A stretch of 26,447 nt of DNA from a virus: the IMG/VR virus record IMGVR_UViG_3300029309_000299, positions 1 to 26,447 of that record. One strand, written 5' to 3'. The notes beneath the pieces were generated by a model. The model worked only from the letters and a program-made list of their open reading frames with translations. It did no database searches and had not been told where the DNA came from. Made by a program: the position numbers and the translations under genes. This document shows positions 1 to 26,445 of this stretch, piece by piece; within the stretch, counting starts at the first letter, position 1, and every line of letters begins with the position of its first letter.

Positions 1-98
1 GAGAGACAGGTATAGTGTTTCATTCATCTAGTTTAAAGCCCTCGAAACGTCGGGGGCTTTTTTCTTGCCTACAACCCGCGTGAACACTAGGCACACAA
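1..98. repeat. Left copy of terminal direct repeat (contig closure)
   Basis: Bases 1-98 are identical to 26348-26445; the next base differs (G at 99, A at 26446). A repeat of this size at both contig ends is what an assembler leaves on a circular or terminally redundant phage genome. The right copy follows directly on the last gene's end and the left copy leads into the early promoter, so joining them gives a sensible terminator-to-promoter junction. A true short terminal repeat on the packaged molecule cannot be told from an assembly overlap here. Confidence 0.9.
35..63 (+). terminator. Rho-independent terminator of the late operon
   Basis: A 10-bp stem (35-44 with 51-60, one T-G wobble) closes a six-base loop and runs straight into a T tract at 58-63. 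In the circular genome it lies just after the last gene, which ends at 26362 in the right-hand copy, and before the first early promoter. It separates late from early transcription. Confidence 0.85.
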
Positions 99-161: not shown

Positions 162-338
162 ATGAACGAAACACAAACACACAACACGATGCAAAAGACA
201 AGCACCAAAGGCAAAGACCTCGCGTGGGACATTGCCACCCGCCTCCGGGCAAACCAGTTTAAGGATATGACCCTTGGAGAGATTGACGACTTCCGGGCTG
301 AGATGGCCAAGTTCCTCGACCTTAAAAAAGAATGGTGA
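162..338 (+). CDS. Small early protein with MNxTQTH leader, unknown function
   Basis: A 58-aa charged soluble protein and the first gene behind early promoter P1. An upstream in-frame ATG at 135 lies inside the promoter between the -33 and -7 boxes, so the ATG at 162 is chosen; a second in-frame ATG is at 189. The opening residues MNETQTH match those of the two other proteins that follow this promoter type (5507 and 6993), while the rest (residues 10-58, ending DLKKEW) is unrelated to them. The stop overlaps the next start as TGATG. No family was recognised. First-expressed small phage proteins often act on host takeover or defence, but nothing in the sequence proves that here. Confidence 0.75.
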   Translation: MNETQTHNTMQKTSTKGKDLAWDIATRLRANQFKDMTLGEIDDFRAEMAKFLDLKKEW

Positions 339-2294: not shown

Positions 2295-2844
2295 AGGCAC
2301 GAACGTAATCGTAGCATATCGAGAATCCCCAGCCAAGACCGAGGCGGCTTTGATTATCATGCTCAAAGAGACCCTCAGCTACCTCGACTACAACAAAAGT
2401 ATCACGGCAGACAGGGACGTACTAGATGCCGTCCACCATCTACGGGACACCTTTCCCGCGATGAAGCTGGAGGAATGGGCGATTATTATGCACCGCCTCA
2501 AGACAGGTGAATACAGGCCCGGCTACGAGCGTTTGAAACTTCCCGAACTTGTCGATATATTTCAACAGTACGAAGGCGAGAGAGCAGCCGTCAGAGAAGG
2601 CAACTGGAATGAGCTCAAAAAGCACGCTCCAGACCGCCTCAACGACGAACAACTCGATGCCCTCTACGACAACTACAAAAAGCGTCGTGAGAAAGAAAGT
2701 CAAGACATCGAGAAAGCCAAAGACATCAAAAGAGTGCCCGTCAAAAATGGACGATGGGAGCACATACCGCACCAAAGCGACCCGAACTACCAAAGCCCGA
2801 TGGAATCGGAGCGCGATGGTAAAGAAGGTGGACACCGTGTTTAG
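2203..2844 (+). CDS. Hypothetical replication-partner protein (P position)
   Basis: A 213-aa mostly helical soluble protein without Walker motifs, signal peptide or membrane segment. The ATG at 2203 is chosen; the frame is open from 2158 but that start lies deeper in the initiator gene. Residues 70-135 (from TADRDVLDAVHHLRDTFP to LPELVDIFQQYEGERA) form the most family-like part and recall small proteins common in Bacteroidota phages; the C-terminal 50 residues are charged and probably disordered. It follows the O-like initiator with overlap, the place where lambda encodes helicase loader P, which also lacks a Walker motif. A loader role is inference from position only. Confidence 0.55.
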   Translation: MKQKELALQTAHSLENISNASRLTPERAWSEGTNVIVAYRESPAKTEAALIIMLKETLSYLDYNKSITADRDVLDAVHHLRDTFPAMKLEEWAIIMHRLKTGEYRPGYERLKLPELVDIFQQYEGERAAVREGNWNELKKHAPDRLNDEQLDALYDNYKKRREKESQDIEKAKDIKRVPVKNGRWEHIPHQSDPNYQSPMESERDGKEGGHRV

Positions 2845-3199
2845 CCAGTACGTCAGACTTCGCGCGGCAGACGATAGAGGATATGGGGAGTGCTACACCT
2901 GTGGAGCCGTGAGACATTGGACAGAGGTAGACGCAGGCCACTTCATGAGCCGGGCGTGTATGTCCACACGATGGGAGGAGAAGAACGTGCAGTTTCAATG
3001 TAAGAGGTGCAATGGATTTCGAAGCGGAGAACAGTACCTCTACTCTATACACCTCGACCAACAATACGGAGAGGGCACCGCAGAGGAACTGTTGAGGGAG
3101 TCTAAGAAGACGCGCAAGTTTTCACGTCACGAGCTGGAGGCAATGTACCAACACTACAAGAGAAAGGTAGATGAACTCAAGAGCACGAGAGGACTTTGA
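2747..3199 (+). CDS. ninG: NinG/Rap-family recombination endonuclease
   Basis: A 150-aa protein recognised as the NinG/Rap family (PF05766). It has CYTCG (C49, C52), DAGHF (62-66), CKRCN (C85, C88) and the segment EQYLYSIHLDQQYGEGTAEE that ends in a helical K-R-K-V-D-E-L tail. Lambda NinG (Rap, Orf) is a structure-specific nuclease that cuts recombination intermediates and aids Red-type exchange; the Cys pairs bind zinc. The ATG at 2747 overlaps the preceding gene by 98 bases; the ATG at 2816 (M24) would also keep the whole family core and may be the true start. It overlaps the sigma-like gene downstream by 29 bases. Confidence 0.88.
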   Translation: MDDGSTYRTKATRTTKARWNRSAMVKKVDTVFSQYVRLRAADDRGYGECYTCGAVRHWTEVDAGHFMSRACMSTRWEEKNVQFQCKRCNGFRSGEQYLYSIHLDQQYGEGTAEELLRESKKTRKFSRHELEAMYQHYKRKVDELKSTRGL

Positions 3200-3656
3200 C
3201 TTTTGGTTTACCGAGAACTACGACGACCTTTCTAACGTTGCACGGAGATTGCACCCCGACTCGTTCGACCTCTTGCACCATACATATCTCTCTTGCGTCC
3301 TCGCTTTACGACGCAACAAGAACATCTTGGACAACCTCCCCGGATATGTCCACACCTCTATGTGGAATCTATCTACTGGAACATTCAGAAAGCTCTACAA
3401 GATAACCGACGCACCCAACTACACCCACATATCGAACTACGACATACAAGAGGCGATACGAAAGGAGGAAGCGTTAATTATGGCCAACCATCTGTCTTGG
3501 TTTGACAGGAATGTCTTAGAGTTATATCTTGACGGGTGGAGTATGGCAGAGCTGAGTCGTCAGTCTGGCATCGACGTGAACGTTCTGTACAAATCTATCT
3601 CGACATCGAAAAAGAAACTCCGTAATGTTATTTGTCAACGCGCACCTAAGAGCTGA
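3171..3656 (+). CDS. Sigma-70-like transcription factor
   Basis: A 161-aa protein. Residues 15-60 resemble sigma region 2 (YDDLSNVARRL, FDLLHHTYLSCVLALRRNK), and residues 105-152 a region 4 HTH (LSWFDRNVLELYLDGWSMAELSRQSG, with a recognition helix near VNVLYKSISTSKKKL). This two-domain, linker-joined plan is that of small ECF-type sigma factors and the sigma-like proteins annotated in Bacteroidota phages. It probably directs host RNA polymerase to middle or late phage promoters, in line with the lack of host-type promoters across the late genes. Region 2 is degenerate, so an anti-host or accessory role is possible. Confidence 0.7.
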   Translation: MNSRAREDFDFWFTENYDDLSNVARRLHPDSFDLLHHTYLSCVLALRRNKNILDNLPGYVHTSMWNLSTGTFRKLYKITDAPNYTHISNYDIQEAIRKEEALIMANHLSWFDRNVLELYLDGWSMAELSRQSGIDVNVLYKSISTSKKKLRNVICQRAPKS

Positions 3657-5090: not shown

Positions 5091-5443
5091 CAAAGAGTGA
5101 CACGTTAGAGCCAAAAAAGGCAAACATGGTTGAAGCCCTAACCAAAGCCCTTGGCATTGTGAAGATGGCTTGTGAGTCGTGTGGCATATCAAGAAACACC
5201 CACTACCGATGGCTCAAAGAAGACCCAACGTACAAAGCCGCGTGTGACAACTTGCCCGAAGTCGTGTTGGACTTTGCAGAGCACCATCTGCACAAGCTCA
5301 TCTCGCAAGGCAACCCAGCGGCCACCATCTTCTATATGAAGACCAAAGGCAAGGGACGTGGATATGTGGAACGTCAAGAGATTGAGGTGGCAGAAAAGAA
5401 GCCGCTCAGTTGGTTTGTTGGTGAAGATTCAACGACGAGCTAA
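5087..5443 (+). CDS. Terminase small subunit
   Basis: A 118-aa protein starting at the GTG at 5087, which overlaps the preceding stop as GTGA (an ATG at 5060 is a longer alternative). Residues 13-45 are a helix-turn-helix (VEALTKALGIVKMACESCG, then ISRNTHYRWLKEDP), and residues 50-100 a helical oligomerisation part followed by a basic linker. This is the plan of small terminases, which bind the phage pac or cos site and feed DNA to TerL. The gene is separated from terL by a self-contained cassette (5444-5773). The stop codon opens directly into the A-tract upstream of promoter P2. Confidence 0.8.
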   Translation: MTKSDTLEPKKANMVEALTKALGIVKMACESCGISRNTHYRWLKEDPTYKAACDNLPEVVLDFAEHHLHKLISQGNPAATIFYMKTKGKGRGYVERQEIEVAEKKPLSWFVGEDSTTS

Positions 5444-5472
5444 AAAAAAATCAAAGTTTTTTTAAGAAATGC

Positions 5473-5506
5473 TTGGATAATTAAAATTCAGTTGTATCTT
5501 AGCACC
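5473..5506 (+). promoter_or_regulatory. Promoter P2 of the first cassette, apparently leaderless
   Basis: TTG (5473-5475), 19 bp, then TATCTTAG (5495-5502), with four bases to the ATG at 5507. From the TTG to the ATG it differs from P3 at only four of 37 positions. Upstream, a nine-A run (5442-5450) and a seven-T run (5457-5463) face each other across six bases, as at P3; this may act as an UP-like curved element or a weak hairpin. Confidence 0.85.
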
Positions 5507-5707
5507 ATGAATAACACACAAACCCACACCATGAACGAAGTTTACAAAAATCGCGCAAACTACTTCTTGAACGAGGCACGCGCCCTGTTGATTCTCGACA
5601 AAAAAGACTCAGCTCTTTGGGCCGCAAAAAATGGAGCGTACAACCTCCGGAGCGCAGGAGCAGATGATTCTGTCGCATTGGAACTCATGAAACGCGCATA
5701 CGCATAA
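5507..5707 (+). CDS. Cassette 1 small protein (MNxTQTH leader), unknown function
   Basis: A 66-aa protein with its own promoter (P2) and terminator, placed between terS and terL. The first residues MNNTQTH match those of the proteins at 162 and 6993; a second in-frame ATG is at 5531. Residues 12-64 look like two helices (RANYFLNEARALLILDKKDS and ALWAAKNGAYNLR … ALELMKRAYA), reminiscent of a helical-hairpin or TPR-like repeat. No family was recognised. Autonomous transcription and lack of a packaging role suggest a moron-type accessory gene, perhaps acting against host defence; that is inference. Confidence 0.72.
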   Translation: MNNTQTHTMNEVYKNRANYFLNEARALLILDKKDSALWAAKNGAYNLRSAGADDSVALELMKRAYA

Positions 5708-5733
5708 TCAACCCAAAAGAAGACTACCCCAAC

Positions 5734-5757
5734 AGGAGCCGATGGCTCCTTTTTTTT
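5734..5757 (+). terminator. Terminator of cassette 1
   Basis: AGGAGCC (5734-5740) and GGCTCCT (5744-5750) form a perfect 7-bp stem on a GAT loop, followed by an unbroken T run to 5757. It ends transcription from P2 just 17 bases before the GTG of terL, so terL must be read from elsewhere or by readthrough. Confidence 0.9.
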
Positions 5758-5773
5758 GTCTTAACTTTTAGGC

Positions 5774-6928
5774 GTGAGGCAACCGGCCACATACTTCCAC
5801 GTCAAAAATTCGGAGGCCAAGATTCAAGTCCACCAAGGCGGCACGCGCTCAGGCAAGACCTACTCTATCCTCACCGCTCTCATAGAACTGTGCCACCGGA
5901 ACGAGAACTCCGGAGCAGTCATCACGATTGCGAGAAAGACCTTCCCGGCCATCCGTGCCTCGTGTATGAGGGATTTTTTTGAGATACTAGAAAGGGAGGA
6001 CATCTACAATGTAGAGCTGCACAACAAAAGCGAGGCCACCTACATCCTTTTTGGCAACCTTGTCGAGTTTATCTCGGTTGACCAGCCGCAAAAGGTCAGA
6101 GGCCGCAAGAGGGACATCCTGTTTGTAAACGAGGCCAACGAACTCACCCTTGAGGACTGGCGGCAACTTATGCTTAGGACGACAGGACGGGCCATCATTG
6201 ACTACAACCCGTCCGACGAGTTCCATTGGATATACGACCACGTTCTCACCCGTGACGACCACGACTTCTTCAGGACGACCTACAAGGACAACCCTTTCTT
6301 GCCAGAGGCCACCGTCGCAGAGATTGAGAGATTAAAGGAGGCAGACCCGGACTATTGGAGGGTGTATGGTCTTGGAGAGCGAGGCGTAAGCCGTGCAACC
6401 ATCCTTACCCATTGGAAGGCCGTGCCACAAGTCCCGGACGGGTGGAAGCTAATGTCCCTTGGCCTTGACTTTGGATATACCAACGACCCTACGGCCATCG
6501 TGAAAGTGTACACCGACGGCCACGGCTTTTGCCTCGATGAAGTTTGCTACGCCACGGGACTGACTAACGCGGCCATCGCTCAGACGCTCAGAGAGGCCGA
6601 TATAGGTAAGACGATGGTGGTGGCAGACTCAGCCGAGCCAAAGTCGATTGACGAGATACACGGCCACGGATTCAACATCCACCCAGCTCGTAAGGGCAGG
6701 GACTCGGTGCGCTCAGGTATAGACTTTCTTCGTTCGCGTCCGTTGCTTATCACAGAGCGAAGCATCAACGGAATCAAAGAGCTCAGGAACTACAAGTACA
6801 AAGAGGACAAGAACGGGCGACAACTCAACGAACCTGTGGACGCATTCAATCACTTTGTCGATGCCTCACGCTATGCGGTGACGTGGAATCAGACCAACCC
6901 TAACTTTGGGCAATACGCATTGGGCTAA
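5774..6928 (+). CDS. terL: Terminase large subunit
   Basis: A 384-aa packaging motor. The ATPase half has Walker A GGTRSGKT (22-29), Walker B ILFVNE (115-120) and DYNP (143-146), the coupling-motif region. The RNase H-like nuclease half has GLDFGY (D232), VVADSAEP (D285) and VDAFNHFVDASRY (D356 and D363), the expected acidic metal ligands. The GTG at 5774 is the first usable start after an in-frame stop at 5762, and leaves a short lead before Walker A, normal for this subfamily. It translocates DNA into proheads and cuts concatemers with the TerS at 5087. It is flanked on both sides by promoter-ORF-terminator cassettes. Confidence 0.95.
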   Translation: MRQPATYFHVKNSEAKIQVHQGGTRSGKTYSILTALIELCHRNENSGAVITIARKTFPAIRASCMRDFFEILEREDIYNVELHNKSEATYILFGNLVEFISVDQPQKVRGRKRDILFVNEANELTLEDWRQLMLRTTGRAIIDYNPSDEFHWIYDHVLTRDDHDFFRTTYKDNPFLPEATVAEIERLKEADPDYWRVYGLGERGVSRATILTHWKAVPQVPDGWKLMSLGLDFGYTNDPTAIVKVYTDGHGFCLDEVCYATGLTNAAIAQTLREADIGKTMVVADSAEPKSIDEIHGHGFNIHPARKGRDSVRSGIDFLRSRPLLITERSINGIKELRNYKYKEDKNGRQLNEPVDAFNHFVDASRYAVTWNQTNPNFGQYALG

Positions 6929-6958
6929 AAAAAAATTCAACTTTTTTTTCAGTTTTGT

Positions 6959-6992
6959 TTGGAGAATTAAAATTCGGTTGTATCTTAGTGCC
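6959..6992 (+). promoter_or_regulatory. Promoter P3 of the second cassette, apparently leaderless
   Basis: TTG (6959-6961), 19 bp, TATCTTAG (6981-6988), and four bases to the ATG at 6993. The spacer contains GAATT-AA-AATTC, an inverted repeat that could be an operator. A nine-A run (6927-6935) and an eight-T run (6942-6949) precede it, starting inside the terL stop codon, exactly as P2 starts inside the terS stop codon. Confidence 0.85.
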
Positions 6993-7220
6993 ATGAATAA
7001 AACACAAACACACCCAATCGACGGCAAATTTGTCAACGCTGGAAACGGCATCTTCGGAGAAGTTCTCAATTTATGGAACGACGGAGGCGACTACGAGAGC
7101 AACGTACAGACCTTTGCAGACATCAAGACGCACACTGGCAACATCGTCAGCGTATCTCCTAAGCGTTGCAAGGTTATCACATGGCAAGACTACCTCGATT
7201 GCATCGAGTTGACAGCATAA
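6993..7220 (+). CDS. Cassette 2 small protein (MNxTQTH leader), unknown function
   Basis: A 75-aa protein with its own promoter (P3) and terminator, directly after terL. The first seven residues, MNKTQTH, match the proteins at 162 and 5507, but the rest is unrelated: a beta-rich pattern (GKFVNAGNGIFGEVLNL, TGNIVSVSPKRCKVITW) ending in a short helix (DYLDCIELT). Unlike the other two there is no second Met, so the ATG at 6993 is the only sensible start and the leader peptide is really translated. No family was recognised. It is treated as a second moron-like accessory gene. Confidence 0.72.
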   Translation: MNKTQTHPIDGKFVNAGNGIFGEVLNLWNDGGDYESNVQTFADIKTHTGNIVSVSPKRCKVITWQDYLDCIELTA

Positions 7221-7227
7221 ACCCAAC

Positions 7228-7248
7228 GGGGCTGCGGCTCCTTTTTTT
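7228..7248 (+). terminator. Terminator of cassette 2
   Basis: A 5-bp stem, GGGGC (7228-7232) with GCTCC (7237-7241, one G-T wobble), on a TGCG loop, followed by seven T (7242-7248). It is weaker than the cassette 1 terminator but sits at the same place relative to the ORF. It is followed by a matching TAACTTTT-GG stretch, showing the two terminator regions share ancestry. Confidence 0.75.
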
Positions 7249-7302
7249 ATGCCGTAACTTTTGGGAGACTTCAGGAATCCAACCCTTTCAACTTGTAACA
7301 AT

Positions 7303-21872: not shown

Positions 21873-23753
21873 ATGCAAAAAGCCCTACTATTTCTCCTTC
21901 TCCTCCCGAAACTGGTTCTGTCGCAAGAGTGCCTTGTACACGAGGTGCAGGCGATGGGGCTACAAAAAAGCCGTAACCTAAGAACATACTTGCAACAAAC
22001 CGTCCCCGTGGTGTTTCATATCGTCCACGACGGAGGTCAATCCAACGTATCCGAAGCTCAAATCGTCTCTCAAGTTCAAGTCCTAAACGCAGAGTTCGAG
22101 GAGAGCGCGATTAGTTTCTGTTTGGCCGCAAGAGACCCCGAAGGCAACCCCACAACAGGCATCACACGCACCAATGGAGCAACCATTTGGAGCGAATACG
22201 CAACCGACGGGATAAGCAACGGAACCGATGGGAGCGTGGGAGTAAATGAGGGTTTTGTAAAACAGACGGCAGGGTGTTGGAATCCCGACGAATACTGCAA
22301 TATCTACATTGTGCCAGAGATTAACGGCAACGACGGCTTGGGTGGGGCGCAAGGATTCGCTTACCTAGGCCCAACAAACGATTGCAGAGATGGCATCGTA
22401 ACGCTTTACAATGCGACAGGGACGACGGGTGTACTGAAGCCGGGGCGCACCCTTGGACTGACTCTCGTACACGAGATGGGGCACTACCTCTCTTTGTTTC
22501 ATACGTTTCAAAATACGGTCATTTGCAACGATGAGTGGAATTGCGAGGTGCAGGGAGACAGGGTTTGCGATACTCCCGTAACGTTGGCAAATTACAACTG
22601 CACAAATGAGAGTTGTCCCGACGCTTTGTTGGACAACTTCATGGACTACACAGCAGAGGATTGTCGTGAGAGCTTTACCGAGGGTCAGTCGGCACGGATG
22701 CACCAATGCCTTGAGGAACAAAGACCAGCCCTTGCCACAAGTTTGGCGTGTGCGCCCGTAGTCGATTACGACGCGGGTATCGGTGAGGCCGTGTATTTTG
22801 AGGAGTGGTGTACACCGAGCCAAGACATTTGGGTGGACGTACTTAACCAAGGGACGCAAACCTTGGGATGGGTGGAGGTGCGCCTATTCAGCAACGGACA
22901 AGAATACCTTGAGGTGTTGTTGGATATGCCTGTGGGCACGCAGAGCGTACTCTTTGAGGACGTAAGTGTGGAGGGTGCTCAGATGTTCGAGGTTCAGGTT
23001 TTGGCTCAAGACGAGCAGTACCCCGACAACAACTACGTCTCCTTCCCTTTGGACTATGTGGTGGGCGACGTGGTGGACATCACCTTCAACGCGCACAATG
23101 GAGCGTACCTCCTGTCTTGGTCTTTGCTTAACGAAGCGGGCGAGGTCTTGATTGGAGACCAAAACTACCCTCCCACAGAACAGTTGTACGAGTACGAGGC
23201 GTGCGTAGCTGACGGGTGCTACGAGGTACAGATAGACGACCTCTTGGGGAATGGTATGTGCTGGCTCGATTGGGACGACGACGGAGAGTGTAACCTAGGG
23301 GGGGGGTCTTTTCTTGCCACCCTAAACGGAGACACCGTGGTATGGACGGGTGAGGGGACTGTCTTTGACTCTTTCTCCCAAGAGTTTTGCAATGCTCTTG
23401 GGCAGTGCCCCTTGGATTACGACGGCAATGGCACAATAGGCAACGGGGACATCTTGGTTATGATGAGCTACTACGGACAAACCAACCCTCCCATCGACCC
23501 CAACAACGACGGGGTGGTCAGCGTCCAAGACCTTTTGTATATGCTTTGGAACGTAGGGGACTGCCCCGTGGAGTTGGACTTCTCTCCCGGAACGTACATT
23601 GATTACGTTGTGGAGGCAAGTGTGTTGCCTCTGGGCAAGCCACGTATCTACGACATCTGTGGACGACAGGTAGAGCGACCCTTCGACCAGCTACCGACAG
23701 GGGTGTACATCCTCAAGTGGAAGCATATCACTCGCAAGGTCTTTGTGCAATGA
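21873..23753 (+). CDS. Secreted M43 (cytophagalysin-like) metalloprotease with T9SS type A tail
   Basis: A 626-aa protein. Residues 1-18 are a signal peptide (MQKALLFLLLLPKLVLSQ). Residues 40-290 are an M43-type protease: HEMGHYLSLFH (200-210, zinc ligands H200, H204, H210, catalytic E201), the Met-turn NFMDYTAEDC (M257) and FTEGQSARM. The usual Gly of HExxHxxGxxH is Ser207. Residues 300-395 look like a CARDB-type Ig domain and 403-506 a beta domain (ACVADGCYEVQIDDLLGNG). Residues 515-535 and 542-562 are two dockerin-like Ca motifs (DYDGNGTIGNGD; DPNNDGVVSVQD). Residues 588-626 match the type A sorting tail (RIYDICGRQV, LPTGVYILKW, KVFVQ). Export is by Sec, then T9SS. An ATGA overlap joins it to the next gene. 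Confidence 0.85.
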   Translation: MQKALLFLLLLPKLVLSQECLVHEVQAMGLQKSRNLRTYLQQTVPVVFHIVHDGGQSNVSEAQIVSQVQVLNAEFEESAISFCLAARDPEGNPTTGITRTNGATIWSEYATDGISNGTDGSVGVNEGFVKQTAGCWNPDEYCNIYIVPEINGNDGLGGAQGFAYLGPTNDCRDGIVTLYNATGTTGVLKPGRTLGLTLVHEMGHYLSLFHTFQNTVICNDEWNCEVQGDRVCDTPVTLANYNCTNESCPDALLDNFMDYTAEDCRESFTEGQSARMHQCLEEQRPALATSLACAPVVDYDAGIGEAVYFEEWCTPSQDIWVDVLNQGTQTLGWVEVRLFSNGQEYLEVLLDMPVGTQSVLFEDVSVEGAQMFEVQVLAQDEQYPDNNYVSFPLDYVVGDVVDITFNAHNGAYLLSWSLLNEAGEVLIGDQNYPPTEQLYEYEACVADGCYEVQIDDLLGNGMCWLDWDDDGECNLGGGSFLATLNGDTVVWTGEGTVFDSFSQEFCNALGQCPLDYDGNGTIGNGDILVMMSYYGQTNPPIDPNNDGVVSVQDLLYMLWNVGDCPVELDFSPGTYIDYVVEASVLPLGKPRIYDICGRQVERPFDQLPTGVYILKWKHITRKVFVQ

Positions 23754-24721
23754 GGTGGCTTTTGCTCTTTGTCCCCTTTTTGTCTTGGGGTCAATGCGAC
23801 CTTGAGATTGTAGGTTTCAATCCTATATCTACGGATATGACCCTTGCCGTAAATGGTGGGGCGTGTATGACAGATGCTGACAGTGTTGGAGAGTTCCTCT
23901 TGGGGTTGACGTTTACCCAGCCAATACCCAACATCTCTGACAACTACCCTTGCTTCTATCCTGACGGGTGGGCCAAGCTAATATTCCCTCTAGACTTCCC
24001 CGGCTTCGACATTGGAGAGGGCGACGACAACATCTTGCAGACGGGGGATACTGTCACGTTCAACTTACTCGAAACCCCGTGGGCGGGGTCTGGTACGGCT
24101 GACTGTTGGATAGAGATTTTCCAAGACGCGGCTTATTTTGAGGAGTGCGTTATCGTAGCCGTATATCAAGTCAACGATAGCCCCGACCTTGGGGACGACG
24201 ACCTCTGGAACTCGTGGATAGAGTGGAGCCTAAACGGAGCGTGCGACCCTCCACCGCCTCCATTGGTGCAGGGGTGTACAGATATGTTCGCCTTCAACTA
24301 CAACTCGGAGGCCACCGACGACGACGGGACGTGTGTATATCAAGGTTGTCTTGACCCCGACGCTCTGAACTACTGCGAGGAATGTTCTATCGAGGGAGAA
24401 TGCAACTACGCACCCGACGAAGGGGAGGAATGCTTCGACCCACAAATCTATTGCCCCAACACCTTCACCCCAAACGGGGATATGGTCAACGAGTATTGGC
24501 AACCCGTAACCCGTGAGGAGTGCTGGTGGAGGTGGGAGTGCTCTATCTACAACCGATGGGGGACGCTTGTGTGGAGGAGCTACGACCCCTCCGACAGGTG
24601 GCTTGGCAACCGCCTTGGATACTTCGTCCCCGACGGTGTTTACGTCTGGCATATTCAAGCGACAACATTTCGTTCAACAAAGGCCGTAGATATTTACGGC
24701 CATATCACTATATTCCGATGA
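23750..24721 (+). CDS. Secreted cysteine-rich protein with T9SS type B (CHU_C) tail
   Basis: A 323-aa protein from the ATG at 23750. Residues 1-15 are a signal peptide (MRWLLLFVPFLSWGQ). Residues 16-165 form a beta-rich, W/C-containing domain of unknown family. Residues 175-225 hold two GC-x-D-x-x-A-x-N-Y repeats (GCTDMFAFNYNSEATDDDGT and GCLDPDALNYCEE), common in Flavobacteriia surface proteins. Residues 234-323 are the gliding-motility-associated C-terminal (type B) domain: NTFTPNGDMVNEYWQP, YNRWGTLVW, VPDGVYVWHI and GHITIFR. Type B cargo is usually attached to the outer surface or released, and needs the host SprF/PorP-type partner. It may act with the protease upstream, which it overlaps by four bases. 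Confidence 0.85.
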   Translation: MRWLLLFVPFLSWGQCDLEIVGFNPISTDMTLAVNGGACMTDADSVGEFLLGLTFTQPIPNISDNYPCFYPDGWAKLIFPLDFPGFDIGEGDDNILQTGDTVTFNLLETPWAGSGTADCWIEIFQDAAYFEECVIVAVYQVNDSPDLGDDDLWNSWIEWSLNGACDPPPPPLVQGCTDMFAFNYNSEATDDDGTCVYQGCLDPDALNYCEECSIEGECNYAPDEGEECFDPQIYCPNTFTPNGDMVNEYWQPVTREECWWRWECSIYNRWGTLVWRSYDPSDRWLGNRLGYFVPDGVYVWHIQATTFRSTKAVDIYGHITIFR

Positions 24722-26144: not shown

Positions 26145-26362
26145 ACCCGTGGTTGGGTCTTATCTCGGCTCTAGACATCACTCAAATCTTCAAGACCAAG
26201 GGCAACCTTCGTCGATGGTCAGCAAAGAGAAGCATTGGAGGCGCAATTGTTATCGAGGCCCTTTGGCAAATTCACGAGTTTGGCTTATCTTGGGAGGGCA
26301 TCGTACTATGTGGAGTCGGCATAGCTCCACTGTGCCTCAGTTTTTTTGAGAGACAGGTATAG
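26120..26362 (+). CDS. Small membrane protein, holin candidate
   Basis: An 80-aa protein from the ATG at 26120 (the ATG at 26081 lies inside the previous gene and is rejected). Residues 35-55 and 58-75 are hydrophobic (SIGGAIVIEALWQIHEF and WEGIVLCGVGIAPLCLSFF) with a short turn, giving one or two membrane segments. It is the last gene before the terminator at 26382 and overlaps the phosphoesterase by 25 bases. Similar small terminal proteins in Bacteroidota phages are taken as holins; that is an inference. Confidence 0.6.
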   Translation: MGDKGSNVNPWLGLISALDITQIFKTKGNLRRWSAKRSIGGAIVIEALWQIHEFGLSWEGIVLCGVGIAPLCLSFFERQV

Positions 26363-26445
26363 TGTTTCATTCATCTAGTTTAAAGCCCTCGAAACGTCGG
26401 GGGCTTTTTTCTTGCCTACAACCCGCGTGAACACTAGGCACACAA
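26348..26445. repeat. Right copy of terminal direct repeat
   Basis: Identical to bases 1-98. It includes the last 15 bases of the last gene and the late-operon terminator. The base after the match (26446, A) differs from base 99 (G). Confidence 0.9.
26382..26410 (+). terminator. Late-operon terminator, right copy
   Basis: Same 10-bp stem and T tract as at 35-63, 19 bases after the last stop codon. It ends the late message before the early promoter in the circular genome. Confidence 0.85.

Follow-up and report, generated by a model that had tools for sequence, protein, structure and literature searches.

Small-gene cassettes with common regulatory flanks, probably exchanged between uncultured phages of likely Bacteroidota hosts

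Why should the same promoter, transcript start and terminator enclose two unrelated small genes, one on either side of a phage terminase gene? The question is raised by IMGVR_UViG_3300029309_000299, a viral record of 26,447 bases that was analysed at its full length (the window), and in which two such blocks flank terL, the gene for the terminase large subunit. An initial annotation had read them as a modular slot system. Our comparison with related phages makes it likely that this uncultured group of Bacteroidota phages carries small-gene slots filled by moron-type cassettes with Bacteroidota sigma promoters, which are swapped by recombination via their common regulatory flanks. The comparison draws on two terL scans that gave about 120 of more than 590 terL relatives, about 115 of which were examined; these relatives are metagenomic contigs, numbered as loci (L001 and so on). 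Three addresses are distinguished: P0, behind the early promoter; S-L, from terS to terL; and L-N, from terL to the next gene.

Three copies of a promoter and transcript start

The blocks after terS and terL were confirmed in their details: TTG, 19 bases, TATCTTAG, four bases and an ATG that opens a reading frame of 66 or 75 amino acids (pay1 and pay2), followed by a hairpin with a T-run (5734–5750 and 7228–7241) and by TAACTTTT-GG (5762 and 7255). Between TTG and ATG (5473–5509 versus 6959–6995), exactly four of 37 bases differ, and a pattern built from both blocks has two exact matches in the window, where none is expected from 100 dinucleotide shuffles. Both cassettes are present, but they are not alone. 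A third copy at 97–192, which had been missed and begins with the codons for MNETQTH, stands immediately behind the genome-end terminator at the head of the early genes, so that there are at least three addresses. Over 96 bases it shares 69% identity with block 1, and a pattern common to all three blocks matches exactly these three sites of the window, again with none expected. The two terminators, whose flanks were said to match, are similar but not identical, that of cassette 2 being chimeric.

The primary sigma factor of Bacteroidota (sigma-ABfr) recognizes TTTG or TTG at −33 and TAnnTTTG at −7, with the final G at −5 (PMC6847099). All window promoters, of the form TTG-N19-TATCTTxG, agree with this consensus and its spacing; P0 has the TAnnTTTG form, and cassettes 1 and 2 carry TTAG in place of TTTG. 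As a further promoter candidate, TAACTTTT was dropped since it has no −33 element, and an Rfam search gave no match.

Because the consensus places the last G at −5, the ATG would be the first transcribed triplet in each window cassette. Among 34 non-redundant promoters, 24 have an ATG exactly at the predicted +1, and every one of these begins a reading frame that runs for at least 41 codons without a stop, including those with a second ATG downstream; most of the remaining promoters have ATC at +1, and translation starts 21–30 nucleotides later. The first 25 transcribed bases consist of 54% A and 30% C, compared to 29% and 24% in the window, and at least the first 21 are predicted to be unpaired in all three window copies. 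Given the ATC variants and the in-frame second ATGs, we dropped the MNxTQTH leader as a peptide signal: the leader proposed by the initial annotation is indeed shared as a nucleotide sequence, but what is conserved is most readily understood as the 5′ end of the mRNA. It probably serves translation initiation and, secondarily, as a homology arm, and translation from the +1 ATG is predicted to be leaderless. Bacteroidota are not known to use Shine-Dalgarno sequences, and the +1 ATG with its A/C-rich start suggests a testable translation strategy for such a phylum. CA repeats 3′ of the start codon raise the translation of both leaderless and leadered mRNAs in Escherichia coli (PMC9031893), ACA motifs are likewise tied to translation enhancement (PMC3879156), and in Flavobacterium initiation benefits from adenines 5′ of the start (PMC6847099).

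In the mechanism that we propose, a cassette has four parts: an A/T-tract with a host-type sigma promoter (TTG-N19-TATCTTTG or TATCTTAG); an A/C-rich, unstructured transcript start of 20–27 nucleotides as proposed initiation region, in which the ATG is at +1 (leaderless) or follows a short 5′ untranslated region; one or a few small genes; and a hairpin terminator. Cassettes reside at fixed addresses (P0, terS–terL and terL–next gene). Their regulatory ends could provide short arms of homology that allow phages to exchange payloads and payloads to shift from one address to another; whole cassettes can also disappear or form tandem arrays. Host RNA polymerase would transcribe the payloads independently of the late operon, insulated by their own terminator and probably early after infection, because the cassette promoters are copies of P0.

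Filled, empty and stacked slots in related phages

Counted over loci where both neighbouring genes are present, the L-N junction is a bare 30–51 nucleotides in 87 loci and extends over 344–1779 nucleotides in 25 filled ones, which represent 21 non-redundant fillings. At S-L, the neighbouring genes overlap by 4–5 nucleotides in 49 loci, and 62 loci are filled. Mapped onto a terL tree, the fill state requires 15 changes at L-N, 12 of them forced by well-supported branches, and 19 changes at S-L. The nearest kin of the window, L004 and L005 (about 92% identity in terL DNA), are bare at L-N. Relatives thus do not simply carry the same two reading frames: the close ones are bare, and pay2 is found at two other positions in other phages.

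Swapping within constant flanks had been the central claim of the initial annotation, and searching relatives for the flanks bore it out, with different payloads in L008, L034, L035, L077, L079, L049, L091, L096, L098, L099, L100, L112 and L123–L127. The L-N fillings of L008, L035, L077 and L079 have the A/T-tract, the promoter and the A/C-rich start in common, usually together with a GGAGCC/GGCTCC hairpin and T-run, and their left flanks and that of the window are 72–89% identical among themselves. The promoter flank of the L-N filling in L049 is divergent (48–61%), and across the six filled L-N slots the payloads are 10–23% identical at the amino acid level. At S-L, the window and L008 have both flanks in common, including TTTTTTTTGTCTTAACTTTTAGGC, around unrelated reading frames. 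A promoter-leader profile detected further cassettes outside its seeds, at L-N or S-L, in L091/L092, L096, L098, L099, L100, L112, L123, L125, L126 and L127, and matches almost nowhere else except at P0. Strict right-flank patterns matched L008 alone among viral contigs, being too strict to sample the family, and strict promoter-leader patterns matched two and four loci.

Cassettes are also stacked: the L-N junction of L112 holds three in tandem, joined by terminator-promoter composites; its second payload is that of L008 and its third that of L099. P0 is a slot as well, with five different first genes after the promoter-leader in L015, L072, L076, L090 and L093; its 3′ boundary is a constant AACGGGGGCTTCGGCCCCC hairpin (AACGGGG..CCCC) that has no terminator T-run. 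In the window, L017 and L064, the P0 leader runs directly into pay0.

Two kinds of repeats were seen beside these slots. In the P0 region of L027, L044 and L093, A/C-rich leader-like repeats (e.g., CAAACCCCCAAxACGATG) precede successive early reading frames, as if the leader had been duplicated at each insertion. In L063 and L075, a second, truncated copy of the terL start (TGAGGCAACCCGCCACATA...) lies in the S-L gap, which we regard as the footprint of illegitimate recombination at S-L.

Payloads also change address. The P0 slot of L090 opens with a relative of pay2 (93% amino acid identity), and another (76%) forms a stand-alone promoter-gene-terminator unit among other late genes in L091/L092. 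Family 10 is found at P0 in L106/L110 and at L-N in L100, and family 5 at L-N in L104–L107 and at S-L in L096. A loose tail of family 3 was left out after alignment, and L070, L076, L100 and L106 were rejected as members of the pay2 family on alignment, having the leader alone in common with it.

One exchange can be followed base by base. Both flanks of cassette 2 in the window resemble the L-N cassette of L008, and its middle resembles the P0 payload of L090: diagnostic sites that agree with L008 and with L090 number 69 and 8 in the flanks, against 6 and 85 within the payload (Fisher p = 1.6e-30). The switch points lie in the leader (about 6985–7005) and within the terminator hairpin (7226–7241), whose left arm continues the L090 sequence CATAAACCCAACGGGG and whose right arm follows the L008 sequence GGCTCCTTTTTTTATGCCGTAACTTTT, so that the stem is shortened and chimeric. 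Judged by these sites, cassette 2 is a double-crossover mosaic, and its chimeric terminator displays directly an exchange point of the kind that is seldom visible.

These observations bear on a simpler account, in which an early promoter was duplicated, raising expression at two places, and the payloads are incidental, stable small reading frames without any exchange. Spacer and flanks of the three window copies do agree far more widely than the sigma consensus would require, and hence the copies are homologous. However, the corresponding sites of relatives are bare junctions or hold different payloads, three addresses are known for pay2, and a mosaic with two crossovers is present, which makes duplication by itself very improbable. 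Functional convergence has a little more in its favour but is still improbable. Here, promoter, A/C-rich start and generic terminator would have arisen independently around small genes inserted at random by illegitimate recombination; −33/−7 elements, A-rich starts and hairpin-T terminators are expected for any host-transcribed gene (PMC6847099), L078 has a different promoter in the same slot, and many S-L inserts have no promoter at all. Against convergence, identity also takes in the A/T-tract, the spacer outside the consensus and TAACTTTT behind the terminator, the homologous P0 copies have the same leader, and the mosaic breaks at leader and hairpin.

Discrete units, empty sites and arrays, as well as the leader-like repeats of L027, L044 and L093, could alternatively point to a dedicated enzyme, such as an integron-like recombinase, a transposase or a homing endonuclease, that recognizes the leader or the hairpin. 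Yet a Pfam scan of early-region proteins revealed no integrase, transposase or other recombinase, the cassette boundaries in the window merge into flanking homology with no fixed core site, and the L-N fillings show no constant target duplication; we give this possibility only a slight chance. Rather, cassette exchange probably proceeds by homologous or microhomology recombination, general or phage-assisted, via short homology. The NinG family promotes recombination in lambda, and we count it in favour of recombinational cassette exchange that the phage encodes a NinG-type protein.

Several points weigh against exchange of cassettes through their flanks. Single metagenomic assemblies could be chimeric, yet the structures recur in independent samples. 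Part of the flank similarity reflects vertical descent; the tree is that of one gene (terL) in recombining phages, and some of its branches are weak; and the hidden Markov model E-values of seed loci are not independent. A terminator within the late operon would be expected to cut the expression of terL or of the next gene. Mobility of pay1 itself is not supported, as searches of viral contigs and phage records gave no relative. A set of 38 payload representatives gave no meaningful match in Pfam, PHROGs, PADLOC or NCBIfam.

Payload proteins and their possible role

The cargo consists mostly of proteins of 55–95 amino acids. Payloads with relatives have ratios of nonsynonymous to synonymous substitution rates (dN/dS) of about 0.07–0.14, and are therefore selected as proteins. 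Searches of PDB sequences gave no match. pay1 is predicted to fold into a three-helix bundle (predicted local distance difference test, pLDDT, 88) in which the leader residues alone are disordered; the model of pay2 was poor (pLDDT 65) and was not used. A structure search with pay1 returned one identical entry of 66 amino acids, BFVD A0A516LFL3, and otherwise noise, which indicates that this phage or a sibling has already been deposited.

In relatives, S-L is occupied by genes without a promoter as well, including N6/N4 methylases, Dam, a C5 methylase and two Mom-like proteins, as well as a family of small basic proteins. This DNA-modification hotspot comprises L011, L017, L029, L045, L051, L071–L073, L075, L080, L093, L101, L006 and L091, and its genes often overlap the terL start (TGAGGCAACC). 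DNA methylases and Mom-like proteins are standard anti-restriction functions. Because of these S-L modification genes, and because archaeal viruses offer a precedent (PMC11065993), a counter-defence role of the payloads is plausible by analogy, and host takeover or counter-defence would be the function that we infer for them.

Alternatively, the cassettes could be real and their payloads regulators of the phage or helpers of virion assembly. No payload matched PADLOC or other known anti-defence models, and two of the three addresses adjoin the terminase. On the other hand, genes with a core role in assembly would hardly turn over so extremely or be missing from close kin, S-L of relatives holds the DNA methylases and Mom-like proteins, and anti-defence genes of archaeal viruses were found via such common early promoters (PMC11065993). 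We consider regulators or assembly helpers somewhat unlikely, although far from negligible. Cassette exchange may have a wider reach: one scaffold at several addresses would form a phage-wide exchange platform in which recombination through the scaffold itself passes dozens of small genes, probably for counter-defence, from phage to phage and from early positions to those beside the terminase or back, and the scaffold sequence alone would suffice to find new counter-defence genes. This extension is tentative, and our judgement falls a little short of evenly balanced. As a search key, the promoter-leader leads to dozens of nameless small proteins behind one recognizable element, and in the archaeal-virus precedent such gene sets are rich in counter-defence genes.

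Comparison with known systems and the phage genome

Morons, as defined by Hendrix and colleagues and used in PMC6469090, are extra genes that lie, each with a promoter and a terminator of its own, between two genes found side by side in relatives. The cassettes fit this label as proposed in the initial annotation: they are inserted at junctions that are bare in relatives (87 at L-N and 49 at S-L) and carry promoter and terminator sequences of predicted activity; they would also be transcribed independently, as morons are, classically from a repressed prophage. The cassettes differ in that many payloads share, and swap within, one regulatory scaffold.

The promoter early stem-loops (PeSLs) of T4-like phages (Arbiol et al. 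2010, Comeau et al. 2014, as cited in PMC4503421) are repeated terminator-promoter composites between small genes that mediate shuffling. The L112 junctions and the junction between genome end and P0 are built alike, and in the cassette 2 mosaic, too, motif homology seems to mediate cargo exchange. In single cassettes of the window, however, promoter and terminator stand on opposite sides of the cargo. Moreover, the promoter here is of the Bacteroidota sigma type and not a T4 early promoter, this 26-kb phage is not T4-like, the A/C-rich transcript start is part of the arm, the addresses are defined and include the terminase genes, and one crossover lies inside the hairpin. The cassette system would therefore work like PeSLs, yet we do not class it as such, since phage group, promoter and start region differ.

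Other systems are more distant. In archaeal viruses, too, a single conserved, strong promoter sequence serves numerous small early genes that are unrelated to one another (PMC11065993), but no terminator or slot structure is reported there, and anti-defence was tested there and is plausible here by analogy, in a bacterial phage. The defence hotspots of P2/P4 phages and satellites (PMC9122126) also have high-turnover cargo between conserved phage genes; they hold whole defence systems, in contrast to small proteins with constant promoter and terminator. Integrons resemble the cassettes in having interchangeable genes behind a constant promoter, with arrays possible, but here no attC site accompanies them, the scanned early-region proteins include no integrase, and each cassette has its own promoter. 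What the cassettes offer is a nucleotide-level picture of how accessory genes are gained, lost and swapped in small phages of a poorly known host phylum.

Table 1. Positions of the cassette elements and of terL in the window
Feature	Position	Strand	Remarks
Genome-end intrinsic terminator	35..60	+	11-bp stem and T-run; forms a terminator-promoter composite with P0; layout recurs in relatives
Third copy, A/T-tract and promoter P0	97..161	+	TTG 128-130, N19, TATCTTTG 150-157
P0 A/C-rich transcript start	162..188	+	MNETQTHNT; second in-frame ATG at 189
pay0	162..338	+	58 amino acids; first gene behind P0; P0 slot empty in the window, leader fused straight to pay0
Cassette 1 left flank	5442..5506	+	A-tract, T-tract, promoter TTG 5473-5475, TATCTTAG 5495-5502
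Cassette 1 A/C-rich leader	5507..5530	+	ATG at predicted +1; second in-frame ATG 5531
pay1	5507..5707	+	66 amino acids; reading frame of cassette 1
Cassette 1 right flank	5734..5773	+	GGAGCC/GGCTCC hairpin, T8, TAACTTTTAGG; terL starts at 5774
terL	5774..6928	+	phrog_2 terminase large subunit, E 3.7e-43; flanked by both slots
Cassette 2 left flank	6928..6992	+	A-tract, T-tract, promoter TTG 6959-6961, TATCTTAG 6981-6988
Cassette 2 A/C-rich leader	6993..7016	+	Left mosaic crossover in or beside leader, about 6985-7005
pay2	6993..7220	+	75 amino acids; purifying selection; relatives at P0 in L090 and at a late-gene site in L091/L092
Cassette 2 right flank	7226..7264	+	Chimeric hairpin GGGGCTGCGGCTCC, T7, TAACTTTTGG; right crossover within hairpin

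The window is probably a complete, circularly closing genome, because its ends repeat identically over 98 bases (1–98 and 26348–26445), and all of its genes with recognizable function lie on the plus strand. The closest named relatives of terL, with about 40% identity, are from Bacteroides, Phocaeicola and Flavobacterium phages; a host search in genome contigs gave distant terL relatives only. At 23717–24721, a protein of 334 amino acids carries a C-terminal type IX secretion sorting domain (CHU_C E 1.2e-12, TIGR04131 above cut-off), a trait of Bacteroidota. The phage apparently exploits the type IX secretion system of its host with this protein, or else it is a virion protein with a borrowed domain. 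Because the promoters fit the consensus, and given the terL relatives and this sorting domain, a Bacteroidota host is likely. The NinG-type protein is encoded at 2549–3196 (E 4.7e-17), and the product of 3171–3653, with a weak sigma-70 region 4 match below the cut-off (E 0.002), might be a late transcription factor. The phage further encodes, at 21873–23753, a 626-amino-acid M43 (pappalysin-type) metallopeptidase with an HExxH motif (Pfam E 1.2e-17).

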